DNA from: Selenomonas sp. oral taxon 920
GTDB lineage: Bacteria > Bacillota > Negativicutes > Selenomonadales > Selenomonadaceae
Direction: 5' to 3'
Assembly: GCF_001717585.1 (NCBI RefSeq)
Contig: NZ_CP017042.1
Span: 186,001 to 250,000 of the forward strand
Length of the DNA stretch: 64,000 nucleotides
Part shown: positions 47,059-59,035 of the stretch, piece after piece
Numbering within the stretch: position 1 is the first letter of the stretch
Layout of the letters: the number at the start of each line of letters is the position of its first letter
Program-made: the position numbers and the translations under genes
The notes under the pieces: model-generated
The model's input: the letters and a program-made list of their open reading frames with translations, nothing else
What the model was told of the DNA's origin: nothing
Database searches by the model: none

Positions 47059-47075
47059 CTCCCATACACAACAGA

Positions 47076-47160
47076 ATAAGGGGAGCTGACAGCAGTCGGC
47101 TGAGAGGGGACAATGCGTCCCGACCCATAACCTGATTTGGATAATGCCAACGTAGGGATA
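47076..47160 (+). promoter_or_regulatory. TPP (thiamine pyrophosphate) riboswitch
   Basis: The leader contains the THI-element signatures: CTGAGA within GGCTGAGAGGGG, then CCCGACCCATAACCTGATTTG and GGATAATGCCAACGTAGGGA. This is the full conserved core. Bound TPP would favour the downstream terminator hairpin at 47174-47206, repressing cytX-thiM-thiD-thiW. Confidence 0.95.
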
Positions 47161-47173
47161 TATGTGCACACAG

Positions 47174-47206
47174 CGCGGCTATGTCAGTTGGCATAGCCGC
47201 GTTTTT
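47174..47206 (+). terminator. Riboswitch expression-platform terminator
   Basis: A 10-bp perfect stem CGCGGCTATG/CATAGCCGCG (47174-47183 with 47192-47201) is followed by five T, just ahead of the cytX ribosome-binding site. Confidence 0.85.
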
Positions 47207-52879: not shown

Positions 52880-54907
52880 TTACGATGACTTTTTCACGCT
52901 CAGAACGACCTTGCTGAAGAGGCCGAGGATGCCGAGAAAGACAAGGAGGCCGAGCATCTCAGCGGTGTCGGCAAAGCCCTCGGGGGCGATGGCGAGCGGA
53001 CTCTCGCCGCCGCCGTTCGAGACAGAGACGACGATGACCCCCGCAAGCAGAACACCGACGATGGACTCGCCGACGATGAGGCCCGAGGCAAAGAGCGTGC
53101 CGCGCCTGAGACCTGCCGCCTCGGCGTTCGAGCCACCCGTATTCCGCAGATGGCGGTTGAGGAGGTAGCCGAGGATGGCACCGACAACGAGCGGCGTCTG
53201 GATGACGGGCGGGAGGTAGATACCCATGCCGACGGCAAGCGGCGGCAGGCAGAGACTGCGCGTGGTGCGCTTGAGGAAAAGGTCAATGAGGACAAGCACC
53301 ACACCCAGACCGATGCCGATGTAGATATACTCCCATGCGAGCTTACTGGAGAAAATGCCCTGTGCGATCGTGGTCATGAGCACCGCCTGCGGTGCGGAGA
53401 GTGCCTGCGCAGGATCCATGCCTGCGCGCGGCATCGCTCCCGGGAAGCCGTACGCCTCGTAGAGAAGGTTCAGCACGGGCGCGATGACGAGTGCACCGAC
53501 GAGGCAGCCGATGAGGAGTGCAACCTGCTGACGCCACGGCGTTGCGCCGACGAGCCAGCCCGTCTTGAGGTCCTGCATATTGTCGTTCGAGATACACGCA
53601 ATCGCGAGGATGATCGAGGTGGTAAAGATGGCCGTCGCCGTCGCAAATTTCTCGCCGCCCTCCATCTCGAAGATGCCGAACGATGCGCAGAGCGAGTACA
53701 TGACAAGTGAAGCGACAATGATGCCGAGGATGCCGATGCCGGAGATTGGGCTCGAGGATGTGCCGACGAGACCCGCCATATAGGCACAGGCGGCGGCGAC
53801 GAAGAAGCCCATGAGGACGGATACACCGACGCCGACGATGGTGAAGATGATCTTCTGGCTTGGCGGGATGTGCTCAGGGCTGACAAAGATATAGAAGATA
53901 CCGAGCAAGCCGATGACCGTCACGCCGAAGACGAGCGCGATGCTCTTCATCGACATGTCGATGTCCATGCGGTGCAGCCCTTTCTCTTCGTCACTCGCGC
54001 GTGCACCCGCGATGGACTCCTTCACGCCGTCGATGACGGGACGGGCGAGGGTGATGAGCGTCCAGATTGCGGCGACGCCCATAGCGCCCGCACCGATGAG
54101 ACGCACCTTCTGCTGGTAGACCGCGCCCGCAAATTTCTGGAGGGTCATTCCGTCGGGCAGTGCCTCCGTCATGGTGAAGTAGGGGACGAACCCAGCCCAT
54201 GCGATGGCGATCCCCGTCAGCATGGCAAGTCCGCTCGCAATGCCGATAAGGTAGCCCGCACCCACGAGCGCGGTAGAGTAACCGAGCGGCAGCTGTGTCA
54301 TGCCGCGTCCGACGTGGAACCATGCCGAGAGCGAGCCGCCGAGCACCTGAAGTCCGTTCGTGAGGAATGCGATGATGCCCGCGATCGCGCTGCCCGAGAG
54401 GATCTCCTTCAGCCCTGAGTCGGACTTGCCGTCCTCCTTTGCGTGGCTGCCAACCTTTAGAATCTCGGCTGCCGCTACACCCTCAGGGTAGGCGAGGGGG
54501 CTGTGCACGACCATCGCACGGCGCAGGGGAATGGTGAAGAGTACGCCCAGACAGCCCCCACACGCGGAGACCATGAGCGTCTGCCAGAACTCAAAGCCCT
54601 GCCAGTAGCCGATCATGAGCATGCCGGGGATGATGAAGATGATGGCAGACAGCGTACCCGCCGCTGACGCCTGCGTCTGCACCATGTTGTTCTCGAGGAT
54701 GTTCGCATCCTTTGCCATCTTCAGCACCGCCATCGAGATGACCGCCGCGGGGATCGCCGACGAGAACGTCAGACCGACCTTGAGCCCGAGGTATACATTC
54801 GACGCGGTGAAGATGATCGTGAGGATCGCGCCGAGGATCATGCCGCGCACGGTGAGCTCTGGTAGTCTCAGCTCGTGCTGCATGAACTCGTTCTGCGGAT
54901 CTTTCAT
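52880..54907 (-). CDS. OPT-family oligopeptide transporter
   Basis: The 675-residue protein is an OPT-family transporter with about 14-16 helices and the motif ISNDNMQDLKTGWLVGATPWRQQ. Bacterial members move peptides or metal chelates. The start at ATG 54907 (AGGTGATTC) is chosen; the frame reads much further back into the ncRNA interval but lacks a site and is non-coding there. Promoter at 54957. It is monocistronic. Confidence 0.92.
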   Translation of the reverse strand: MKDPQNEFMQHELRLPELTVRGMILGAILTIIFTASNVYLGLKVGLTFSSAIPAAVISMAVLKMAKDANILENNMVQTQASAAGTLSAIIFIIPGMLMIGYWQGFEFWQTLMVSACGGCLGVLFTIPLRRAMVVHSPLAYPEGVAAAEILKVGSHAKEDGKSDSGLKEILSGSAIAGIIAFLTNGLQVLGGSLSAWFHVGRGMTQLPLGYSTALVGAGYLIGIASGLAMLTGIAIAWAGFVPYFTMTEALPDGMTLQKFAGAVYQQKVRLIGAGAMGVAAIWTLITLARPVIDGVKESIAGARASDEEKGLHRMDIDMSMKSIALVFGVTVIGLLGIFYIFVSPEHIPPSQKIIFTIVGVGVSVLMGFFVAAACAYMAGLVGTSSSPISGIGILGIIVASLVMYSLCASFGIFEMEGGEKFATATAIFTTSIILAIACISNDNMQDLKTGWLVGATPWRQQVALLIGCLVGALVIAPVLNLLYEAYGFPGAMPRAGMDPAQALSAPQAVLMTTIAQGIFSSKLAWEYIYIGIGLGVVLVLIDLFLKRTTRSLCLPPLAVGMGIYLPPVIQTPLVVGAILGYLLNRHLRNTGGSNAEAAGLRRGTLFASGLIVGESIVGVLLAGVIVVSVSNGGGESPLAIAPEGFADTAEMLGLLVFLGILGLFSKVVLSVKKSS

Positions 54908-54956
54908 GCAAGAATCACCTGTCCTTCTATACAATAAAGTGAAAAATAACAGAAGT

Positions 54957-54984
54957 ATTATAACATAGAAATACAGAATGTAAA
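54957..54984 (-). promoter_or_regulatory. Promoter of the OPT gene
   Basis: On the reverse strand TTTACA (54979-54984), a 16-base spacer with extended TGT, and TATAAT (54957-54962). Confidence 0.7.
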
Positions 54985-55092
54985 CGTCTATATTTACATG
55001 TATACAGAAAATTGATGAAAAAAGAAAACAAAACGTGCAATCAAACGAAAATCGACTGCCCACAGAGGAGCCTTCGCATCGCACAGACAATA

Positions 55093-55638
55093 CAAAACCG
55101 CCGACAGGCTTTCTCGTCACCTGTCGGCGGTCTGAGGAAAATACGGGAAGTGATAGGTAACTCTCTTGCATCCAAACGATCTTCGCTTCGTTCCTCGCCC
55201 GAGCTAGCATGAGGCGGGGAACTTTCCTCCAAAACGCTGAGAAACTACCTTGACATACATGGGCGCACACGCCACAACTCCGCTTGTGGGAAAAATCTTT
55301 CACCTGCGCGTCCGGTATGTCCCTGCGCCCGTCCTCTGCGGGCTGCCGCATCCTCCTGCCGCACCTCTCGACTCCTCTGTTCCATCACGTGCTGGAACTT
55401 GATACACCTGTGCGGACACCCTGCGGCCACTCAATGACCCATCGGAATCTCCTCCCAGTCCATCGGGGAAAATCCGGCGTGCCTGCTCCGCTCAGCCAGC
55501 GAAGCTGCGCGCCGTTATCCCTCTCCAACAACCGTCGGTCAACACTGTGGAAACTCCGGAGAACTCTGCCCGTACGCTTACGGAACATACGGGGGGCTGC
55601 CTGTCCTGAATCAAGCTGCCGATGAATCCTCCTTAACT
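55093..55638 (-). ncRNA. Candidate structured ncRNA of about 545 nt
   Basis: The interval 54908-55772 has no convincing gene. On the reverse strand a near-consensus promoter (55645-55673) is followed by a 545-base GC-rich stretch with several strong hairpins: 55570-55592, 55379-55398 and 55272-55289. It ends at a 12-bp stem terminator plus T run at 55097. A Shine-Dalgarno-like AAGGAGG near the 5' end is followed by no long frame. No known family (RNase P, tmRNA, 6S, SRP) could be matched by eye. Confidence 0.55.
55097..55131 (-). terminator. Terminator of the candidate ncRNA
   Basis: A 12-bp perfect stem (55097-55108 with 55120-55131) is followed on the reverse strand by TTTTGTATTG. Confidence 0.8.
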
Positions 55639-55644
55639 ATCTTT

Positions 55645-55673
55645 AGTATAGTCAAACTTCAGAAGATTGTCAA
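55645..55673 (-). promoter_or_regulatory. Strong promoter of the candidate ncRNA
   Basis: On the reverse strand TTGACA (55668-55673), a 17-base spacer, and TATACT (55645-55650). It is one of the best matches to the housekeeping consensus in the window. Confidence 0.8.
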
Positions 55674-55703: not shown

Positions 55704-55732
55704 TTGACAAAATCCGTATATAGCCATAATAT
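55704..55732 (+). promoter_or_regulatory. Promoter of the cyclase-family gene
   Basis: TTGACA (55704-55709), a 17-base spacer, and TAATAT (55727-55732) lie about 40 bases before ATG 55773. It is divergent from the ncRNA promoter. Confidence 0.78.
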
Positions 55733-55772: not shown

Positions 55773-56540
55773 ATGGCATATCAACTGTGGAATGTTCTTG
55801 ATGAACTGAAGTCAGATGCGTATGAGTGGGTGGATCTGACGCATCCGCTGAACAATGACAGTCCGTTCTGGGCGGGGATTCCGGAGGGCTCTGTGGAGCT
55901 CAGCAAGACGTGCTTTGACTGGGGCAATCCGATGCTCGACTGCCTGATCCAGACGTTCAAGTTCCCGGGGCAGTTCGGGACGCACATTGATTTTCCGGGG
56001 CATTTCGTCCGCAACCGTCCGCTCGCCGAGTCCTATGGGGCGCAGCATATGCTCTATCCGCTGTGCGTGATCGACGTGACGGAGCAGGTCGCACGCGATG
56101 TCCACTATGCGGTGACGGTGGAGGACATCAAGACGTACGAGGCGAAATACGGCGTGATTCCGGACGGTGCATTTGTCGCGCTCTATACCGGATGGAGCAG
56201 GCACTGGCCGGATATGGACGCGATCTCCGGTATCGCGGAGGACGGCAGTGAGAATTTCCCGGGCTGGTCGATGGATGCGCTGAAATACATCTACGAAACG
56301 CGAAATGCGGCCGCGAGCGGGCATGAGACGCTGGACACGGATGCCTCTGTGGAAGCGGCGAAGGCGGGGGATCTTGCCTGCGAGCGATACCTCCTCGACA
56401 AGGGCAAGCTGCAGGTTGAGGTGCTGACGAACCTCGATCGTGTGGCTCCTGCGGGAGCGCTGCTCTTCGTCGCGTGGCCGAATATCGAGGGCGCGACGGG
56501 GCTGCCCGCGCGCGTGATTGCGATTACGCCGAAGAAGTAA
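55773..56540 (+). CDS. Cyclase-family protein (kynurenine formamidase-like)
   Basis: The 255-residue protein belongs to the cyclase/KynB metal-hydrolase family. It has the opening DLTHPLNNDSPFWAG, the metal site FGTHIDFPGHF (HxDxPxH), and HETLDTDAS. Members hydrolyse N-formylkynurenine or cyclic amides; the substrate here is not clear. ATG 55773 is behind AAGGAGATGGCG. A terminator follows at 56552. Confidence 0.85.
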   Translation: MAYQLWNVLDELKSDAYEWVDLTHPLNNDSPFWAGIPEGSVELSKTCFDWGNPMLDCLIQTFKFPGQFGTHIDFPGHFVRNRPLAESYGAQHMLYPLCVIDVTEQVARDVHYAVTVEDIKTYEAKYGVIPDGAFVALYTGWSRHWPDMDAISGIAEDGSENFPGWSMDALKYIYETRNAAASGHETLDTDASVEAAKAGDLACERYLLDKGKLQVEVLTNLDRVAPAGALLFVAWPNIEGATGLPARVIAITPKK

Positions 56541-58502: not shown

Positions 58503-58772
58503 ATGGCTCAGGCAATGGTAAATTTTCGGATGGATGCAGAACTCAAGCGTGCGATGGAGGAGACTTGCCGCCAAATGGGGCTGACGTTGACCTCCGCATT
58601 TACAATGTTCGCGGCTAAGGTGACGCAGGAACGCCGCATCCCGTTCGAGGTCACAGCAGAACCGGATCCGTTCTACAGCGAGGAGAATATGGCGCGTCTA
58701 CGTGCGGCGATTGCAGATGTTGAGGCAGGGCGCAGTACGCTGAAACCGCATGAGCTCATCGAGGCCGACTGA
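58503..58772 (+). CDS. RelB/DinJ-family antitoxin
   Basis: The 89-residue protein has the ribbon-helix-helix opening MVNFRMDAELKRAMEETCRQMGLTLTSAFTMFAAKV. It pairs with the YoeB-type toxin directly after it. TGATG overlap couples the two genes. It should bind and neutralise the toxin and repress the promoter. Confidence 0.88.
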   Translation: MAQAMVNFRMDAELKRAMEETCRQMGLTLTSAFTMFAAKVTQERRIPFEVTAEPDPFYSEENMARLRAAIADVEAGRSTLKPHELIEAD

Positions 58773-59035
58773 TGGAGAAACTGTGGCAGGATGAAGCGTG
58801 GGAGGCCTATCTGTACTGGCAGACGCAGGATAAGAAGACGCTGAAAAAGATCAACCGTCTCATTCAGGATATTGACCGCAACGGATACCAATGCCAGGGA
58901 CAGCCGGAACCGCTCAAGGGCGAGCTTTCCGGCTTTTGGAGTGTTCATATTGATGAAAAGAATCGTCTGGTTTTCCGTATTAAGAATGGGCGATTCGAGA
59001 TATGGCAGTGCGGTTCGCACTATCGGGACAAGTAA
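58772..59035 (+). CDS. yoeB: YoeB-family mRNA interferase toxin
   Basis: The 87-residue protein aligns with YoeB without gaps at the catalytic residues E46, R65, H83 and Y84 (CQGQPEP, DEKNRLVFRI, GSHYRDK). YoeB cuts ribosome-bound mRNA. It pairs with a RelB/DinJ-type antitoxin at 58503 rather than YefM, a mixed pairing that is known but less usual. A terminator follows at 59048. Confidence 0.93.
   Translation: MEKLWQDEAWEAYLYWQTQDKKTLKKINRLIQDIDRNGYQCQGQPEPLKGELSGFWSVHIDEKNRLVFRIKNGRFEIWQCGSHYRDK

Follow-up and report, generated by a model that had tools for sequence, protein, structure and literature searches.

An apparently undescribed structured RNA gene with a putative start-stop micro-ORF in Selenomonas sp. 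oral taxon 920

The stretch of DNA analysed here, which we refer to as the window, comprises 64,000 nucleotides from the genome of Selenomonas sp. oral taxon 920 (contig NZ_CP017042.1, positions 186,001 to 250,000). A putative RNA gene of about 549 nt was identified on the minus strand of the window, between the gene for an OPT oligopeptide transporter and a divergently oriented gene for a putative cyclase. The features of the locus are listed below in window coordinates.

52880..54907, minus strand: OPT oligopeptide transporter gene (Pfam), the downstream neighbour
55092..55640, minus strand: putative RNA gene of about 549 nt, with the start inferred from the -10 box and the end from the terminator
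55097..55131, minus strand: intrinsic terminator hairpin with loop GTGACGAGAAAGC (55120-55108), common to short forms of several genera
55145..55154, minus strand: conserved block ATCACTTCCC, complementary to the Shine-Dalgarno (SD) sequence of the micro-ORF (helix 10)
55203..55210, minus strand: conserved element ATGCTAGC, within which GCTAGC does not vary among the 14 long copies and is found again in many paralogues
55346..55358, minus strand: further SD-like stretch CAGGAGGATGCGG, for which one of the 2 folds predicts pairing with the 3' block
55431..55442, minus strand: putative micro-ORF ATG GGT CAT TGA (M-G-H-stop)
55443..55456, minus strand: SD module GGGAGGAGATTCCG, which can also be read as a small hairpin, GGA-GGAGAT-TCC
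55624..55636, minus strand: 5' SD-like sequence TTAAGGAGGATTC (AAGGAGG), predicted to be paired and with no start codon following it
55645..55650, minus strand: -10 box TATACT, present in 14 of 14 same-genus copies
55668..55673, minus strand: -35 box TTGACA of the RNA gene
55773..56540, plus strand: putative cyclase gene, the divergent neighbour, with a promoter-like site at 55704-55732

The promoter of the RNA gene, TTGACA-17-TATACT (55673..55645 on the minus strand), matched the consensus at 11 of 12 bases in a promoter scan, and 4 promoter-like sites were found in the region compared to a mean of 1.0 in shuffled sequences. The terminator consists of a perfect 12-bp stem, ACCGCCGACAGG/CCTGTCGGCGGT (55131-55120 and 55108-55097), followed by TTTTGT. 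It was absent from the output of the terminator scan, probably because its loop is longer than the 8 nt allowed. Both a near-consensus promoter and a perfect terminator stem had been claimed in a preliminary description of the region, and both were confirmed. The OPT gene has a promoter-like site of its own, TTTACA-16-TATAAT at 54984..54957, which is located 3' of the RNA terminator.

A protein-coding reading of the region, based on an 823-aa ORF on the minus strand (52880-55351) that is open from the RNA into the OPT gene, was rejected because the Pfam OPT domain (residues 17 to 623) lies wholly inside the frame starting at 54907, and because the indels among the RNA copies are not all multiples of three. 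It was also noted that this ORF could mislead gene callers on the start of the OPT gene. Further along the window, at 58503-59035 on the plus strand, are 2 small overlapping ORFs of 89 and 87 amino acids, which we presume from inspection by eye to resemble an antitoxin-toxin pair of the RelB/DinJ and YoeB/RelE types.

The minus strand was predicted to fold to -230.6 kcal/mol, with a z value of -4.75 and a better score than 100 of 100 shuffled sequences. The fold of the plus strand likewise scored better than all 100 shuffled sequences (z of -4.07), so that the strand is not fixed by the folding energy but by the promoter, the terminator, and the conservation. In a DNA search of 100 genomes, exactly one copy was found in each of the 14 genomes of the same genus, including the one from which the window was taken. 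The other 13 copies were 68% to 89% identical to the window RNA, and plain DNA comparison gave no match in the 86 genomes from other genera. The consensus fold inferred from the alignment of the 14 sequences contained 144 base pairs, 38 of which showed two-sided compensatory changes, and 95.0% of the cells were paired. These values were reached by none of 500 shuffles and by none of 6 slid structures. The OPT gene is located downstream in 12 of the 14 copies, and since other genes follow the RNA in the remaining 2 (L014 and L015), where OPT is outside the fetched flank, the RNA is not tied to this gene. The suggestion of a large structured RNA is supported by the conservation and the covariation, and neither of the results that would have counted against it, a significant known family or a lack of conservation among relatives, was obtained. 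Judged from its sequence and that of its relatives, the locus contains a stand-alone, conserved, and covarying RNA gene.

To identify the RNA, the region was scanned with cmscan against Rfam 15 at E-values up to 5. The sole match was to a trypanosomatid snoRNA (E of 0.37, below the gathering score), and no significant known family was thus found for the region. The earlier impression by eye that the RNA is not RNase P, tmRNA, 6S, or SRP RNA agrees with this result. The type-A RNase P RNA of this genome is located elsewhere (G000:C1:1262034-1262392, 309.9 bits), and an identity with RNase P RNA was rejected. No cmscan match to tmRNA, 6S, or SRP RNA was obtained in the window or in the region, and neither a tRNA nor a tmRNA was predicted in the window by ARAGORN. 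A TPP riboswitch was identified at 47069-47175 on the plus strand (61.9 bits). We assume that models for OLE, ROOL, GOLLD, and raiA are contained in Rfam 15; no Rfam match to any of them was found for the window RNA, for 12 loci with short relatives, or for 2 distant relatives, both of which kinds are described below. The scans of these 12 and 2 loci returned only tRNAs, rRNAs, and matches below the threshold. A location in phages or prophages, often close to tRNA genes, is expected for ROOL and GOLLD RNAs. Some of the short relatives (L032, L066, L069, and L077) are located within a few kb of tRNAs.

No DNA match to the RNA was found in phage and plasmid records, a search that did not include prophage genes around the RNA. 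Titles and the openings of abstracts in the literature contained no description of the RNA, but subscription papers were mostly outside the scope of this search, and its absence from print is not shown. Likewise, no matching motif was found in passages of 2 surveys of structured RNAs that mention Negativicutes (PMC6429828, PMC8632094), the supplements of which were outside the scope. The bacterial RNA gene is real and apparently undescribed.

To delineate the wider group, a covariance model built from the long copies (R1) was searched against 189 genomes of the window's family, which is probably the Selenomonadaceae. It matched 15 genomes, 14 of which belong to the genus, whereas the match in G201 was weak. 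The RNA in G201 is only about 180 nt long, with a promoter of its own and the same terminator loop as the long form. A search of the same 189 genomes with the loop pattern GTGACGAGAAAGC identified 59 places in 53 genomes, mostly in short RNAs, compared to 11 matches for the reversed pattern. Among the 14 long copies, 13 share an identical loop, and it is reproduced exactly in the short forms of genera g3, g4, g10, g16, g17, g22, and g25. Eleven loci with the loop pattern were excluded by eye as chance matches in coding sequence (L046, L051-L057, L070, L073, and L085), and one place in G175 and L079, the stretch of which is equal to L077, were also left out.

A second covariance model, R3, was built from 23 short forms and searched against 350 genomes of the class at E-values up to 0.1. 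It matched 64 genomes, 60 of which belong to the family, including 3 with matches judged to be chance (L142-L144), while the 4 matches outside the family were also judged to be chance. At E-values up to 0.001, R3 matched 8 of 398 genomes of the phylum, 7 of them in the family, the other being G745 (L196), where the match lacked the module. The R3 matches L135-L137, L140, L142-L144, and L150 were judged by eye to be non-homologous, and L151 (28 nt) and some weaker second matches, such as those in G202, G209, G198, and G028, were left out of the analysis. By our own reading, the group comprises forms of 165 to 210 nt, paralogues, and forms with 2 and 3 modules in 11 of the 30 genera of the family (g1, g3, g4, g10, g14, g16, g17, g22, g25, g27, and g30), and a second, more divergent copy is present in many of the genomes. 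The 73 RNAs that remained after the exclusions, all from the window's family, were used to tally the modules.

The most conserved inner element of these RNAs was GGAGGnGAkTCCr, directly followed by ATG GGN and a stop codon within a few codons, with GGAGG located about 8 to 10 nt 5' of the ATG. When a stop was not required in the search, 78 instances of the module were found in the 73 RNAs, 77 of which had an in-frame stop within the next 6 codons. Counted as distinct modules, this corresponds to 51 of 52 in frame, compared to 3 of 52 in the +1 frame and 9 of 52 in the +2 frame. The sequences are related and the counts are not independent; nor is the GG of the second codon an independent observation, since the search pattern demands ATGGG. 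In total, 20 different micro-ORF strings were identified, among them MG*, MGH*, MGY*, MGW*, MGR*, MGF*, MGP*, MGQ*, MGN*, MGQGE*, and MGLDNR* (the asterisk denotes the stop). Nineteen of the strings end in a stop, which falls at codon 3, 4, 6, or 7, and TAA, TAG, and TGA are all used. The third residue is H, Y, W, R, F, P, Q, N, or L, or absent, as in 12 of the 77 stopped instances. The lone module without a stop (L083) carries a small local duplication, the second ATG of which reads MGR-stop. Several predicted RNAs contained more than one module, 2 in L118, L123, and L127 and 3 in L058 (at about 1060-1530), each of which has a stop.

The members of a second paralogue group (L121, L122, L124, L128-L134, L139, L141, L145, L148, L149, and L152) read MGP-stop and are located about 80 to 170 nt upstream of a gene from one and the same cluster, the representative of which is an IMP dehydrogenase, with a promoter-like site in between as judged by eye. 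The combination of an SD, a frame of a few codons, and a stop, which is the criterion for a minigene, is met across the family and partly in the 2 distant relatives. A conserved encoded peptide, as expected for a dual-function sRNA, was not found in these frames, where only M-G is constant.

Folded locally, 40 of 51 modules had their AUG in the arm of a hairpin, and only 34 of the 51 left GGAGG mostly unpaired. Duplex formation between the window module and an assumed tail of 16S rRNA (GGAUCACCUCCUUUCU) was predicted at -15.7 kcal/mol. When the most favourable start of each ORF was taken, 6 of the 46 non-overlapping ORFs in the window equalled this value. The SD of the window module is strong, but not unique. 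Patterns for the 3' end of 16S rRNA gave no match in this genome.

According to the preliminary description, the reading frames in the region are short and lack normal starts, which overlooks the three-codon frame with its stop behind a conserved SD at 55456-55431. The description also took an SD-like 5' end as a hint of ribosome contact. This hint is upheld by the internal SD and the micro-ORF, but not by the 5' sequence TTAAGGAGGATTC, which by our reading is not an initiation site. At the level of sequence, a conserved SD with an in-frame start-stop micro-ORF is a feature of the RNA across the family.

In the consensus fold, the micro-ORF SD, GGGAGGAGAU (55456-55447), is paired with a block near the 3' end, AUCACUUCCC (55154-55145), and 8 of the 9 pairs are invariant. 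Since the pairs hardly vary, this closure cannot be tested by covariation. We take the block ATCACTTCCC to resemble the 3' end of 16S rRNA. In an alternative fold, the block adjoining AUCACUUCCC is instead paired with the SD-like stretch at 55358-55346. A switch is permitted by these folds, but it is not shown.

To search for the motif outside the family, one mismatch was allowed and no stop was required. This gave 25 matches in the 350 genomes of the class, all of which were examined. Fourteen of these started frames of at least 108 codons, 6 had frames of 15 to 51 codons, 2 lacked an ATG, and 3 had frames of 2 to 6 codons. Two of the last 3 loci, L197 and L198 in family f15, belong to long RNAs of the same kind, whose predicted lengths are about 560 and 690 nt. 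Both RNAs have a promoter-like site and a terminator but no match in Rfam, and the one in L197 (at about 580-1140) was located directly behind genes for 23S and 5S rRNA. In each of the 2 RNAs the motif occurred 3 times, at positions that correspond between them. Short frames, MG* and MGSTGT* (2 and 6 codons), were confined to the first copies, while the second ran for 21 and 10 codons and the third lacked an ATG. GGAGG was absent from all 6 copies. All 6 fit the pattern GGR-N6-UCC, and 45 of the 52 distinct modules in the family fit GGR-N6-NCC. Since R1 and R3 did not report these 2 loci, other distant relatives may have been missed. The motif copies in L197 and L198 argue against a start-stop role for all copies, and suggest that a small hairpin, GGR-N6-UCC, may be the older of the conserved elements. 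The in-frame pattern in the family itself is unaffected by this.

Other short frames were encountered outside the family. The third of the matches with a short frame (L208), an intergenic sequence in a different family, GGGGGTGAGTCCAATGGGCTAG, is located between 2 genes and reads MG-stop, and the end of a viral contig (L193) reads MGK-stop. Similar loci on 3 Clostridia contigs (L160, L164, and L170) contained an SD and a small ORF that starts with MGSE and includes a PDSSYPH-like stretch, as translated by eye.

Our best reading is that the locus encodes a stand-alone structured RNA that engages ribosomes via start-stop micro-ORFs. In the absence of expression and ribosome data the mechanism is inferred, and we put this reading forward tentatively, with somewhat less than even confidence. 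The sequence evidence suggests that the RNA would be transcribed from its own sigma-70-type promoter and ended by the intrinsic terminator. Its fold would display the SD and a minimal frame of ATG, GGN, a few or no further codons, and a stop, a pattern conserved in the family. By inference, a ribosome that has bound there would link from two to a few residues and terminate immediately, after which it would remain near the SD and could start anew. The RNA might in this manner hold or count initiating ribosomes, either sensing the capacity for initiation or acting as a decoy. It would not act via its peptide, since the third residue varies while the frame and the stop are kept. In the 550-nt form, AUCACUUCCC is inferred to close over the SD, and if the closed fold and ribosome binding are mutually exclusive, the two states would constitute a switch.

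Several observations speak against the start-stop reading. In L197 and L198, a short frame is found at only the first of the 3 motif copies and GGAGG at none of them, and the start-stop logic may thus be a later addition or a by-product. Furthermore, the AUG of most modules is enclosed in a local hairpin, GGAGG is mostly unpaired in no more than 34 of the 51 local folds, and the SD is predicted to be closed in the window form. An extended version of the hypothesis is that the RNAs form a chromosomal class of 165 to about 690 nt with 1 to 3 modules that captures ribosomes, such that occupancy is the signal or the output of a sensor or decoy, and that the long form in the window adds a switch based on a mimic of the anti-SD. 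We consider this version speculative and rather unlikely to hold in full.

The strongest rival to ribosome engagement is a purely structural or protein-binding motif, consisting of the GGR-N6-UCC hairpin followed by a second hairpin, in which the AUG and the stop are mere by-products and no translation takes place. We regard this as unlikely, but as a serious possibility. The motif is kept in the 2 relatives from another family, where none of the 6 copies has GGAGG and 4 of the 6 have no short frame, and the family modules that fit GGR-N6-NCC (45 of 52) point in the same direction. The AUG is part of a hairpin arm in most modules (40 of 51), which also agrees with this explanation, and a loop of U-purine-purine could mimic stop codons. 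What it does not explain is that the stops within the family shift by whole codons (3, 4, 6, 7) with the frame kept. Modules that do not stop at codon 3 do so further on in the same frame, and the +1 and +2 frames are without this pattern. Moreover, GGAGG is kept within the family at a proper distance from the ATG. With regard to CsrA, the RNAs could be sponges with repeated GGA-rich sites that titrate an SD-binding regulator. One to three GGAGGAG-like motifs are present per RNA, and CsrA is present in 167 of the 189 family genomes, including that of the window. However, G022, G050, and G115 in genus g10, which are 99% to 100% complete, contain 2 RNAs each and no match to CsrA, and G034 in genus g22 (91% complete), which has the three-module RNA, also lacks a match to CsrA. 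Conversely, most of the sampled genomes of g12 and g21 have CsrA while the RNA was undetected, one weak match in g21 being judged as chance. Since the in-frame stops would also remain unexplained, a CsrA sponge is unlikely, and we give it very little credence.

The remaining alternatives concern the 3' end of the RNA and its neighbours. The RNA could be a base-pairing sRNA with the terminator loop GTGACGAGAAAGC as its seed, stabilised by ribosomes that load on the micro-ORF. The identity of the loop in 13 of 14 long copies and its exact recurrence in the short forms of 7 genera agree with such a role, but the search with the loop pattern detects only exact copies, and in the second paralogue group it is the micro-ORF module and not the loop that is conserved. 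We find this explanation improbable. It could also be hypothesized that the micro-ORFs and the terminator form a cis-acting leader, that is, a translation-coupled attenuator of the downstream gene. Of 56 distinct short RNAs, 41 have a second frame of about 7 to 15 codons (L031:1592-1621 is an example) that stops at the terminator base. This is suggestive only, since controls with shifted frames reached 12 and 26 of the 56, and in 7 of the 14 long copies, including the window, this frame had no stop at the terminator as judged by eye. In several genomes of g16, a gene for a DUF362 protein starts about 45 nt past the terminator. Yet the genes downstream differ. They include OPT, IMP dehydrogenase, and DUF362, as well as others judged by eye only, such as the ATPase of an ABC transporter, and there is a promoter-like site past the terminator for OPT and, by eye, also for guaB. 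Convergent ORFs follow L068, L069, L126, and L147, those of L126 and L147 with clear Pfam domains and that of L068 with only weak zinc-ribbon matches. Among the relatives' flanks examined, no conserved gene was found downstream on the same strand, as an attenuator would require. Since the neighbours vary (OPT, IMP dehydrogenase, DUF362/ferredoxin, and a convergent ADP-ribosylglycohydrolase), a role as a cis leader is not conserved, and we consider it quite improbable.

Frames of 2 or 3 codons are usually dismissed as noise or as laboratory constructs. If the ribosome-engaging reading is correct, the near-universal frames, the shifts of the stop by whole codons, and the repeated modules suggest that initiation itself, without a protein product, may be the regulatory act. 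The single-copy RNA gene of 550 nt makes this directly testable in cultured relatives. The novelty of the RNA rests on the module and its repeats, and if translation were disproved, what would remain is a new family of structured RNAs only.

Several known systems share some features with these RNAs. OLE, ROOL, and GOLLD are, in the parts of the source available to us, described as long, highly structured bacterial RNAs with poorly understood functions (PMC12286853). The window RNA is also long and heavily structured, but differs from them by having no Rfam family and no match in phage or plasmid records, and by having relatives of 165 to 210 nt that share its core, as well as start-stop modules. 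Minigenes, such as bar of phage lambda, contain very short frames that have been associated with the drop-off of peptidyl-tRNA and with inhibited protein synthesis, according to the accessible portion of a report (PMC8012679). The frame in the window RNA is similarly short. Here, it is a conserved part of a structured RNA gene, present in up to 3 copies, and has GGN as the second codon. SgrS/SgrT and VcdRP exemplify regulatory RNAs that also carry a reading frame, which in VcdRP encodes a small protein of 29 amino acids, as far as described in the excerpts at hand (PMC8672173, PMC4021124). In contrast to VcdRP, the frames of the window type encode only 2 to 6 residues, and the third residue is not conserved. 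The rancRNAs have been proposed to act on the ribosome itself, as stated in the sections available of the corresponding paper (PMC8938821). They differ from the window RNA, which was defined from the sequence alone and without ribosome data. The rancRNAs are not known to contain micro-ORF modules. Finally, CsrB contains several GGA-rich repeats per RNA. Unlike sponges of the CsrB type, RNAs of the window type also occur in genomes without a match to CsrA, and their modules carry an in-frame start and stop.
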